A stretch of 46,132 nucleotides of DNA from Bacteroidota bacterium (GTDB lineage Bacteria > Bacteroidota > Rhodothermia > Rhodothermales > Bin80), in contig JAPOUL010000164.1 of NCBI GenBank assembly GCA_026708685.1, positions 1-46,132 of the forward strand, read 5' to 3'. The notes beneath the pieces are model-generated. The model worked only from the letters and a program-made list of their open reading frames with translations, was not told the origin of the DNA and ran no database searches. Below are positions 21,260 to 42,899 of the stretch, piece by piece; positions within the stretch are counted from its first letter, which is position 1; each line of letters opens with the position of its first letter. The position numbers and the translations under genes were made by a program.

Positions 21260-21347
21260 GGAGAGGTGGCCGAGTGGCTGAAGGCGCTCCCCTGCTAAGG
21301 GAGTATGGGTTAACAGCTCATCGTGGGTTCGAATCCCACCCTCTCCG
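21260..21347 (+). tRNA. tRNA-Ser (anticodon GCU)
   Basis: The acceptor strands GGAGAGG (21260-21266) and CCTCTCC (21340-21346) pair fully. The anticodon stem CTCCC/GGGAG holds the loop CTGCTAA, anticodon GCU, reading AGC and AGU. A long variable arm and the T arm GTGGG-TTCGAAT-CCCAC follow. The discriminator is G, as for serine tRNAs. The genomic 3' end reads GCA, so CCA must be added after transcription. Confidence 0.96.
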
Positions 21348-21389: not shown

Positions 21390-21477
21390 GGAGGGGTGGC
21401 AGAGTGGTTGAATGCACTGGTCTTGAAAACCAGCGTGCCGAAAGGTACCGGGGGTTCGAATCCCTCCCCCTCCGCCA
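21390..21477 (+). tRNA. tRNA-Ser (anticodon UGA)
   Basis: GGAGGGG (21390-21396) pairs with CCCCTCC (21467-21473). The anticodon loop CTTGAAA gives UGA, reading UCA and other UCN codons. The long variable arm is serine-type, and the T loop is TTCGAAT. The discriminator G is followed by an encoded CCA (21475-21477), unlike the neighbouring serine tRNA 42 bp upstream. Confidence 0.96.
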
Positions 21478-39392: not shown

Positions 39393-40937
39393 ATGAATCT
39401 TACTCGACTACTCTCTCTGGCATTCGCTCATTTGTTATGCCTTTGCCTTCTTCTCCCTACGGCCAACGCACAGGAGTATACCAAGAATCTCCGCCCCGAC
39501 GGAAATTTATTTGTCAAGCCCAGAATCGGATTTTCATCCTATCTTGGTGATAATGAAAAGTCGCCGTTTAATTTTAATGGCGACTCGTTTGAGCTTGGAA
39601 GCCCCTGGAATGCAGGTGTTGAATTTGGCTATCAATTTACCGTACCATTCTCCGTCAGCCTTGCGTTTACCGCTGGTGAGTATCCAGTCATCACGCAGTT
39701 TCCTTCAAGGATCAACGATGATGAGAGCGTGAAAAACGATGATGCCCTGCGTACTTCCATTCAGGCGATCGGACGCTACATGTTTGCTCAACGATCCACG
39801 CGCACGGCATTCTATGTCAACTTTGGTCTCACCTATTCTTTTGGAAATGTTGTTCAGGAGCGTGCTCCCTACACGACCGAAGAAAGTGGTAGTGCATTTG
39901 GACCTCTACTCGGGGTGGGCTTGGACATTGCCTTAAACACCCGTTCTTCATTCTTTGTGGAATTCAACAGTGGATTCCATCTTGATGATGAAGCTCTGGA
40001 TGGCACCTCTCAGCATGGATATGGGGGCGTTGATCTTCTCAATGCATTCGGTGCTGGCCTTAAGATTAACTTTTCCAAGGCGGTTACTCCTCCACTGGTT
40101 GGTGCACTCACCTGTCCATCTGGCCTGACACTTACTAGCAGTCCTGTTGAATTTTCGGCGGTCTCCAACGCCGAAGTTGCTACACAGCCTGTGGAGTTAC
40201 GCTGGGAATTTGGTGATGGAGCCACGGCAACTGGAGAGTCTGCAACCCATACGTATACTAGTGCTGGATCGTATGAGGTGATGTTCTTTGCAACCAATGA
40301 GGCTGGTACTGCCTCTGGTTCCTGCATGACGATCATCACGGCTCCCGCAGAGATTCTTGCCCTGACTACCAATAAAGAAAGTGTAAGCATCTGTGACGAG
40401 GACCCAAGCATCACCTTCACTGCCAATGCTAGCGGATCTGAGATCCTCAGTTATTTATGGGACTTTGGAGATGGACAGACCAGTACCCAGTCCACTCCAT
40501 CTCATGTATATGCCGAGTCTGGTTCCTATACGGTGTCCCTCAACCTTCTCAATGATGGAGGTAGCGATACCCGAACGGCCACGGTGAACGTGACCGAAGA
40601 CAATTGTTTCGAGTGCGATATTTCAGAGATGAATACCGCATTCTTTGATCGCAACTCTTCCACGCTTACGGAAACGGGACGTACCCAGTTGATGGAGAAC
40701 CTCCAAATCCTCCAAAATTGCGATCTCAATGTACGCATTGAGGGCCATGCATCCCGCGATGAACGCAATGCACAGCAGTTAAGTGAAGATCGTGCCACTG
40801 CGGTCAAGCAGTTCTACATGGACAATGGTATTGACGAGTTGCGCATGTCTGATATGGGCATGGGTGCCTCTGGTCAGACCACCAAGAAAGGAGCTGCTGC
40901 TCTCTTCCGACGGGTAGATACGATCCCCGCAAATTAG
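39393..40937 (+). CDS. OmpA-family outer-membrane protein with two PKD domains
   Basis: The 514-aa protein begins with a signal peptide (LLCLCLLLPTANA). Residues about 35-230 look like an eight-stranded beta barrel with alternating hydrophobics and aromatic ends (ending LNAFGAGLKINF). Two PKD domains follow, each with the WxFGDG signature (LRWEFGDGATATGES, YLWDFGDGQTSTQS). An OmpA C-terminal domain (about 405-510) comes last, with TAFFDRNSSTLTETG, VRIEGHASRDERNAQQLSEDRA and KKGAAALFRRV. That domain binds peptidoglycan and pins the outer membrane. Barrel-PKD-OmpA order is common in Bacteroidota. A strong terminator closes the gene. Confidence 0.92.
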   Translation: MNLTRLLSLAFAHLLCLCLLLPTANAQEYTKNLRPDGNLFVKPRIGFSSYLGDNEKSPFNFNGDSFELGSPWNAGVEFGYQFTVPFSVSLAFTAGEYPVITQFPSRINDDESVKNDDALRTSIQAIGRYMFAQRSTRTAFYVNFGLTYSFGNVVQERAPYTTEESGSAFGPLLGVGLDIALNTRSSFFVEFNSGFHLDDEALDGTSQHGYGGVDLLNAFGAGLKINFSKAVTPPLVGALTCPSGLTLTSSPVEFSAVSNAEVATQPVELRWEFGDGATATGESATHTYTSAGSYEVMFFATNEAGTASGSCMTIITAPAEILALTTNKESVSICDEDPSITFTANASGSEILSYLWDFGDGQTSTQSTPSHVYAESGSYTVSLNLLNDGGSDTRTATVNVTEDNCFECDISEMNTAFFDRNSSTLTETGRTQLMENLQILQNCDLNVRIEGHASRDERNAQQLSEDRATAVKQFYMDNGIDELRMSDMGMGASGQTTKKGAAALFRRVDTIPAN

Positions 40938-40959
40938 CATACTCTTCCATTGATTTCTC

Positions 40960-40993
40960 ACGGGCACTCTGATGATCATTGGGGTGCCCGTTT
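40960..40993 (+). terminator. intrinsic terminator of the ompA/PKD gene
   Basis: A 14-bp stem (40960-40973 with 40978-40991) starts with the perfect arm ACGGGCAC / GTGCCCGT, continues through three G-T wobbles and closes on a GATC loop. Only TTT follows directly, with more T a few bases later. Its position 22 bp after the stop makes termination the likely role. Confidence 0.8.
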
Positions 40994-41748
40994 ATGTTGT
41001 TCAGAGAATCTCTGATATCGTTCCCAACCCATTTATAGGTCGGGAGATTATAGGAAAGTTGCTTGACCGACTACATGTACGCGGTTTTGACCATGAAATG
41101 ATTGGTAAGGTCACTGATCTCATTGTTGAGCAACTACGGAAATCACTTCATGCAGAGCGAAACCGACTGGCTGAAATACTTTTCAAGAAATTTGTAAAAC
41201 AAGGGCATATACAATTCCGGCTTCGTCTTGACGGGCACAACTGGCGAATGCCACAACACATGGATCCTAATATATCTACCCATGGTGATCAACTTACCAA
41301 TAAAGATGGAGGACCTTTAGAAAAAAGTTTGTTTATTCCACATTTTGATTCCGAATTTAATCGTGAAGAAAGCGAAGTAGCGATCTATCTTGACGGAGAT
41401 TCTGCCTTAACATGGTGGCATCGGAATGTGGCACGTTCCCAATATGGAATTCAGGGATGGAAAAAAGGCAAGATTTATCCTGATTTCATTTTTGCACTTC
41501 ATACAGAAAGTGGAGCCCAACAACTAAGAGCTATTGAAACAAAGGGGGATCACTTGGGCAATGATGACACGGAATACAAACGAGAGTTACTCTCTTTCTT
41601 GTCAAGTAATTATGCCTGGGACACCAGTATACCTGCCGGAGAACTTGAACTGATTTCGGATAATGGCACCACACTTCACTGTGAGCTGATTCTCATGAGT
41701 GAGTGGAAAACTAGATTGCCCGAGCTCTTGGATAAAAACTCTTCCTGA
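40972..41748 (+). CDS. C-terminal remnant of a DEAD/DEAH helicase-nuclease (type III restriction Res-like)
   Basis: The frame encodes about 250 residues that look like the tail of a much larger superfamily 2 helicase with a PD-(D/E)XK nuclease. After a helical region (SDIVPNPFIGREIIGKLL, LRKSLHAERNRLAEILFKKF) comes WWHRNVARSQYGIQGWKKGKIYPDFIFAL and then RAIETKG, in which PD...ExK supply the nuclease acids. LGNDDTEYKRELL follows, as in Res-type proteins. No helicase motifs are present in the window. The apparent ATG at 40972 lies in the ompA terminator hairpin, so it is unlikely to be a true start; the next ATG is 41098. I read this as a decapitated, probably inactive gene whose 5' part was lost. 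Confidence 0.65.
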   Translation: MIIGVPVYVVQRISDIVPNPFIGREIIGKLLDRLHVRGFDHEMIGKVTDLIVEQLRKSLHAERNRLAEILFKKFVKQGHIQFRLRLDGHNWRMPQHMDPNISTHGDQLTNKDGGPLEKSLFIPHFDSEFNREESEVAIYLDGDSALTWWHRNVARSQYGIQGWKKGKIYPDFIFALHTESGAQQLRAIETKGDHLGNDDTEYKRELLSFLSSNYAWDTSIPAGELELISDNGTTLHCELILMSEWKTRLPELLDKNSS

Positions 41749-41915
41749 TTTCGATGAATATCTTATCACTATACAACCTCTTAACCTTCAATTTCATTTG
41801 AGATCATCTCCCTTGATGTTCATTGCTCTCGAATATTGAGTCTCAACATAATACCCCATCGTTTATGATTCTTCAAATACTCTCCTCTTGATCCTATTTT
41901 CTATGCTCCATCTTG

Positions 41916-42899
41916 ATGTCTGGATTTGATCAAAACCGACAGTCAGCACTCGCTCATCAATTGAAGCTAGAAGCTTTAAGAATCGGATTTAATGCGTGCG
42001 GGATCGCAGAAGCCAAAAGGTTGGATGAGGAAGCCGACCGTCTGGAAACATGGCTTGCCAATGGACAGCACGCCTCCATGGGATATATGAACCGAAATTT
42101 TGAAAAGCGGGTTGATCCTACAAAACTGGTGCCTGGAGCAAAACGAGTAGTAACCGTTTTGTACAGTTATTGGCAAGGAATCCAGCACACCGATGGAGCC
42201 GCTAAGATCAGTCGATATGCATGGGGCGATGATTACCATCAAGTGATGAAAGAACGCCTTTACGAATTGTATGCGTGGCTTGAACATGAGGTCAAAACTC
42301 TTTCGGGCCGAGTATTCGTCGATTCCGCCCCAGTGATGGACAAAGTCTGGGCACAGCGAAGCGGCTTAGGATGGATTGCCAAAAATACGAACCTCATCAA
42401 TCCTCACATGGGATCTTGGTTCTTTATTGGCACCATGATCATTGATGTTCCTCTTGCGTGCGATCCACCAGCTACTTACGATCACTGCGGATCATGTACA
42501 AGATGTATTGATGCGTGTCCTACCGATGCCATCTATCAACCGTATGCCGTGGATGCCAATCGGTGCATCTCCTACTGGACCATAGAACATCGTGGAGAGG
42601 TTTTCCCCGATGAAATCACATCCAATCAGGAGAACTGGATTTTCGGATGTGATATTTGTCAGGATGTGTGCCCCTGGAATAAGTTCAGCAGTAAGACAAA
42701 CGAAGCAGGATTCTTTCCCCGTGAAGGAGTTCACGACACCACTCTTGAAGAATGGGAGGAATTAGATTTGGAAGATTTCCGTAAACGGTTCAAGGGAAGT
42801 GCGGTCAAGCGAGCAAAGTACGAGGGATTTATGCGCAATGTAAGGGCCGCCAAGCACTCGCAAGACCCAGAAAATAAAGAACCTTCCTCCGTTGAATGA
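41916..42899 (+). CDS. queG: epoxyqueuosine reductase
   Basis: QueG performs the last step of queuosine tRNA modification: cobalamin-dependent reduction of epoxyqueuosine at the wobble position. The 327-aa protein has the N-terminal substrate domain with YAWGDDYHQVMKERL and VDSAPVMDKVWAQRSGLGWIAKNT (as separate landmarks), where the Asp of VDSAPV is the expected catalytic residue. Two [4Fe-4S] clusters are held by C191, C194, C197, C201 and C245, C248, C252 with neighbours (CGSCTRCIDACP, CDICQDVCPWN). The C-terminal HEAT extension of some homologues is lacking. The ATG at 41916 follows an AT-rich gap of 167 bp. It converges on lysS. Confidence 0.96.
   Translation: MSGFDQNRQSALAHQLKLEALRIGFNACGIAEAKRLDEEADRLETWLANGQHASMGYMNRNFEKRVDPTKLVPGAKRVVTVLYSYWQGIQHTDGAAKISRYAWGDDYHQVMKERLYELYAWLEHEVKTLSGRVFVDSAPVMDKVWAQRSGLGWIAKNTNLINPHMGSWFFIGTMIIDVPLACDPPATYDHCGSCTRCIDACPTDAIYQPYAVDANRCISYWTIEHRGEVFPDEITSNQENWIFGCDICQDVCPWNKFSSKTNEAGFFPREGVHDTTLEEWEELDLEDFRKRFKGSAVKRAKYEGFMRNVRAAKHSQDPENKEPSSVE

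Follow-up and report, generated by a model that had tools for sequence, protein, structure and literature searches.

The C-terminal tail of a type III restriction gene at the ompA terminator of a Rhodothermales genome, probably a relic of a lost system

Type III restriction enzymes require ATP hydrolysis before cleavage, and Mod recognises the site and stabilises Res (PMC3874151). In the solved example, EcoP15I Res, a helical spacer (620-810) comes after the RecA domains, and behind it lies an endonuclease domain, disordered in that structure (PMC4490356). According to the survey in PMC3488263, only type II restriction enzymes work without a methyltransferase, and a solitary type I or III enzyme is safe and useless; in its 1040 genomes 272 solitary restriction enzymes were counted, 99 of them probably truncated (for type III, 4/39). 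Truncated solitary restriction genes as such are already published there. The open reading frame (ORF) described here is likewise far shorter than its complete homologues and stands without a methyltransferase; beyond the cases as that survey presents them, its junction was located, within a few bases, at a terminator hairpin, and a parallel deletion is seen in a sibling genome. Over its last ~250 residues type III Res is of the same sequence family as the tail and shares PD...ETK with it; the tail differs in lacking the helicase part, a Mod partner and a start of its own, and in measuring 258 aa as against ~870. We consider the ORF a relic, the tail of a lost type III restriction system whose head and mod are missing from the genome (probability about 0.84).

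The window is the whole stretch of 46,132 nt shown, contig JAPOUL010000164.1, from a draft assembly of 170 contigs (completeness 99.64% by tool). Ten relatives (G001-G010) were compared, among them the siblings G002, with a full-length res, and G004, with a res tail. Genome loci for tail homologues were the best 80 of 102, and a class survey covered 244 genomes at a match threshold of E<=1e-10. Alignment A1 has 25 rows, the window and 24 loci chosen by hand out of the best 80 of 102. Features are collected in Table 1. Elsewhere in the window, two adjacent tRNA genes lie on the + strand at 21260-21347 and 21390-21474 (Rfam).

Table 1. Features around the junction, in window coordinates.
Feature	Position	Strand	Basis
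OmpA-family protein with PKD domains, upstream neighbour	39393..40937	+	PF00691 1.1e-14, PF18911 2.5e-32; matches in relatives
ompA terminator-like hairpin, interrupted T-run	40960..40991	+	scan and fold
Open frame, hairpin ATG through res tail	40972..41748	+	258 aa
Junction, hairpin 3' foot overlapping first res-homologous bases (GTTT, up to GTTTATG)	40987..40996	+	base identity, sequences
C-terminal tail of type III Res	40990..41748	+	PADLOC REase_III, 64% to G002 res
PD of nuclease motif	41479-41484	+	nuclease motif from sequence
ETK (ExK) of nuclease motif	41536-41544	+	nuclease motif from sequence
queG, epoxyqueuosine reductase, downstream neighbour	41913..42899	+	TIGR00276 9.2e-105

Anatomy of the tail and its junction with the terminator

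The tail ORF matched PADLOC REase_III (PDLC03653) at E 8.6e-38; the match covered profile positions 634-875 of 883, the end of the profile only. The tail was 64% identical to residues 618-865 of the 872-aa Res of G002. This E-value and this identity to an 872-aa Res place the resemblance beyond chance; as judged from sequence, the ORF is what remains of a type III restriction subunit (Res), its last ~250 residues. The preliminary description had called it the C-terminal nuclease part of a Res-like protein, with PD...ExK and without helicase motifs, and each of these points was borne out. The P, D, E and K of PD...ETK were invariant in 25/25 rows of A1, and this motif together with the REase_III tail match points to a C-terminal PD-(D/E)XK nuclease region. 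By position, the tail probably comprises the end of the helical spacer plus that region. Pfam and NCBIfam searches of the ORF gave no credible family and no helicase family, ResIII and RecA-like domains being absent; in contrast, the full-length G002 Res carries PF04851 at 5.9e-13, and the homology of the tail begins only at its residue 618. A match to ribosomal protein S4e (E 0.18) was regarded as chance, as was a PADLOC type I specificity match (E 9.4e-4), for which the limit of a second PADLOC search (1e-5) was too strict to show it. The AlphaFold2 model of the tail had a mean pLDDT of 73 and a pTM of 0.63, and in a fold search with it the best PDB hit had E 0.22, above the limit of 0.001.

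The G002 Res was matched by REase_III over residues 7-859 (4.9e-181), with a type III Mod (597 aa, MTase_III 3.1e-217) directly before res. In an IQ-TREE phylogeny of 17 tails, those of the window, G002 and G004 were separated from the rest with 100% support. One solved sequence was matched by G002 Res in phmmer, EcoP15I Res 4zcf, over residues 413-469 (57 residues, E 4.4e-6), which fall outside the tail region.

The ompA hairpin pairs 40960-40973 with 40978-40991 (14 pairs) around the loop 40974-40977, at -21.5 kcal/mol and z -2.65. The frame of the tail is open from a stop at 40951 to 41748 and its first ATG is at 40972, so that this codon spans the boundary between left arm and loop, close to the earlier claim that the first ATG lies within the terminator stem. 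Behind the stem the window reads TTATGTTGTT. At least four T directly follow the ompA stem in 7/10 relatives and are absent in the window, G001, G009 and G010; the stem is followed by TTTCGTTT in G001 and G009, and G010 has no T-run. In an ungapped comparison in codon register, 66/100 bases were identical to G002 res at 40990-41089 and 14/49 at 40938-40986. Given this drop to the left of 40987, the res homology begins at about 40987-40990, in the 3' foot of the hairpin, in agreement with the proposal that it starts in frame within a few bases of the terminator. GTTTATG is common to the window (GTGCCCGTTTATG) and G002 (GATCCAGTTTATG). The foot of the hairpin has GT as its last bases, and CGTTTATG is found behind the G001 terminator too, so that terminator and res overlap by ~2 to 7 bases. 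For the right-hand junction, 41740-41945 was set against the intervals of the siblings and the sequence following G002 res, and only words of 9-13 bases were found among the matches listed.

The locus in relatives and the missing parts

ompA and queG lay on one contig in 8/10 relatives and on separate contigs in G002 and G004. Comparison of the interval across relatives, which had been suggested at the outset, found no Res between the two genes in any of the 8 relatives with a contiguous interval. Between coding matches the interval measured 155 bases in G007, 221 in each of G003, G005 and G008, 372 in G006 and 437 in G009, all of the same genus, and 78 in G010, 1216 in G001 and 978 in the window. 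The G001 interval contains a 236-aa NYN-domain ORF (L129 3853-4560, minus strand; Pfam NYN E 9.7e-5, just under the cut-off). With this ORF in G001 and the res tail in the window, the ompA-queG interval takes different insertions in different species.

Other elements were seen near these genes. G002 has a match to the group II intron family (RF00029, E 2.6e-5, 35.4 bits against a gathering score of 40) at L131 6199-6273, minus strand, ~340 bases past ompA and close to the contig end, and the bases directly behind the G004 ompA terminator resemble the region of that match. A search of the literature for group II introns located at terminators found nothing evidently related. In G005 a different type III mod-res pair (L140 9656-13785, minus strand) is situated <2 kb from queG, presumably between lysS and a peptidyl-prolyl-isomerase-like gene, as named by translation. 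The neighbour names ftsZ, lysS and acs are likewise our assignments from the translations.

When the genome of the window was searched with G002 Res, the tail, a different Res on contig C93 (40%, 842-aa frame) and a negligible match (E 4.6e-4) were obtained. The best match to G002 Mod was a 47% Mod just before the C93 Res; weaker matches comprised 16 pieces on other contigs and a second piece of the C93 Mod. These searches recovered neither the head of the Res to which the tail belonged nor a close Mod from the assembly (completeness 99.64%). Within the window no significant Mod match was obtained (best E 0.67), and no type III mod gene adjoins the tail. The C93 genes form another type III mod-res pair (G000:C93:54813-58927, within L095) with frames of 536 and 842 aa.

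The mod-res of G002 stands upstream of a gene that we take to be acs-like, and G004 has the same flanks. In the DNA alignment of the two, G004 lacks L091 4808-8731, a deletion of 3924 bases that begins inside mod and ends inside res; L091 2732-4142, which lies upstream of mod, is also missing. The res remnant of G004 has 98 residues, with the catalytic ETK changed to KTK; no shared repeat of note was seen by eye at the ends of the deletion. In the joint codon model the relic branch had an omega of 2.0 (0.03 lnL from 1, 7.1 lnL better than 0.08), and with a neutral end segment the best neutral time was 0.2, with a gain of 7.2 lnL. The G004 relic evolves as if neutral. The contig of the window's genome that bears the acs-like gene (C25) gave no match to Mod or Res, so the location in G002 does not explain the tail.

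Selection on the tail and the frequency of solitary tails

Conservation was counted in 48 tails (the window, G002, G004 and L011-L056 without the frameshifted L055); L057-L090, mostly more distant or partial but including L060 (58%), were left out. The tail of L044 carries a stop and was kept in the conservation count and left out of the codon model. That model was built on 17 of the 48 tails, and the first 11 codons aligned in the G004 relic were masked because they are not homologous. At columns conserved in >=95% of the 46 other tails, the window retains 65/69, as does the intact G002. In a leave-one-out count 41/46 tails miss <=4 conserved columns, and G002 misses 6.

Seven branches were freed one at a time. 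The window branch alone had an omega of 0.055 against a background of 0.082 (2 delta lnL 0.82); in the joint fit it was 0.057 against 0.078, and fixing it at 1.0 cost 12.9 lnL and at 0.15 cost 2.55. Because this branch is saturated (t about 7.6-7.9) and mostly older than the truncation, the test cannot date the truncation. The other branches gave 0.31 for L011 (2 delta lnL 5.87), 0.033 for L026 (4.07), 0.035 for L041 (2.32), 0.070 for L020 (0.17) and 3.2 for the G004 relic (14.5); the test is noisy, the very short branch of the intact G002 being fitted at 7.4 (5.35) when freed alone. With a neutral end segment on the window tail the best neutral time was 0, and lnL dropped by 0.5, 1.1, 2.56 and 4.39 at 0.05, 0.1, 0.2 and 0.3 neutral substitutions per codon, so that a short neutral period still fits. 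Since ~3.2% of neutral substitutions would create a stop, 258 codons could readily stay open through a brief neutral phase. No decay is seen in the window tail, which was therefore either truncated recently or is still constrained; recent truncation fits the data as well as continued constraint does.

Open frames at the best 80 of 102 loci were >=800 aa at 61, 600-799 aa at 7 and shorter at 12. Five of the 12 short frames end at contig ends (L043, L049, L058, L061, L087), L033 and L057 have the helicase part in another frame, and L055 has a frameshifted tail. The other four are truncated res copies, of which L044, L050 and L046 retain ~400 C-terminal residues and L059 retains 186. Their varied ends indicate that beheading of res recurs, at different breakpoints. 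The tails of L046 and L059 stand within ~130 bases of the contig start, behind unrelated sequence. L059 has the sole frame of 220-260 aa in the best 80 of 102 (224 aa), of which only the last 186 residues are Res; short direct repeats, which presumably resemble transposon ends, lie ahead of this tail near the contig start (L059 1-160). With only part of Res following the repeats, L059 is another truncated copy with a different breakpoint. In the Chlorobiaceae-type genomes of L044 (2667-3926) and L050 (5614-6750), which carry no more of Res than these residues, the tails adjoin a 674-aa minus-strand ORF of near-identical sequence, and L046 is truncated at nearly the same point.

In the class survey 9/244 genomes had a match, and 10 of the 12 matches had open frames of 814-890 aa; the two short ones were the window and G004. 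Viral contigs yielded four relatives; three have open frames of 839-869 aa, and the fourth is truncated by the contig start. Plasmids gave 4 matching records (33%), of which two lie under genes annotated as DEAD/DEAH helicases and two have no annotation, and the phage collection gave no match. Neither the best 80 of 102 loci nor the 12 class matches nor the 4 viral contigs contained a stand-alone gene conserved in length and start. The preliminary description had named full-length homologues of about 220-250 aa with conserved starts as the sign of a genuine stand-alone gene, and no close ones were seen; the alignment to full-length Res that it proposed placed the tail at the C-terminus of a family that is full length in most of the class matches.

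Origin of the tail and its meaning

These results support the earlier suggestion of a junction left by the loss of a defence gene whose tail survived, the parent being a type III Res of which a sibling genome has a full-length relative. A whole mod-res would once have stood between ompA and queG, and a deletion ending at the terminator would have removed mod and the head of res. Since none of the 8 intervals holds an intact mod-res, the deletion itself is a step that we infer. Deletion in place is the likelier route, and it looks the same in these data as its variant, which overlaps the relic reading: a res fragment captured by illegitimate recombination, with no whole system ever present between ompA and queG. 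The empty intervals of all 8 contiguous relatives and the empty acs-like site of the window's own genome would suit such a capture. It is nonetheless unlikely, as the tail extends to the usual C-terminus and has the orientation of ompA, which is what a 5' operon deletion would leave, and G004 shows the deletion route within the same genus.

Under the relic reading the tail is probably inert: it lacks both the helicase, on whose ATP hydrolysis type III cleavage depends, and Mod, which recognises the site. Any transcription would be read-through past the ompA terminator, and any translation would start at the hairpin ATG or at an internal start. The same read-through, with either start, would be used if the tail were kept as a free-standing PD-(D/E)XK nuclease. 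That reading, improbable overall, stays a live alternative because the tail shows no sequence decay: its frame is open, PD-ETK and 65/69 conserved columns are kept, and the fit favours a neutral time of 0 (lnL lower by 2.56 at 0.2); the interrupted T-run behind the stem also suits it. Against it stand the absence of any homologue with the window's start in the loci, class matches and viral contigs searched, the lack of a phage match and the few plasmid records. Moreover, no promoter-like site was found on the + strand at 40800-42000, and the ATG sits in a strong stem with no ribosome site evident by eye. It is very improbable that the tail persists as a small nuclease gene with its start codon inside the upstream terminator hairpin; with the start so placed, its expression would depend on terminator read-through. 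An assembly chimera, conceivable in a draft of 170 contigs, is barely credible, as 40936-41930 matches once in its own genome and lies >4 kb from the contig end.

The function of the tail is most likely ordinary. As the relic of a type III system, the window tail joins the full-length copy of G002 and the decaying tail of G004 as three states in one genus. If it is expressed, the tail would be a natural test of a type III nuclease region acting without its motor.
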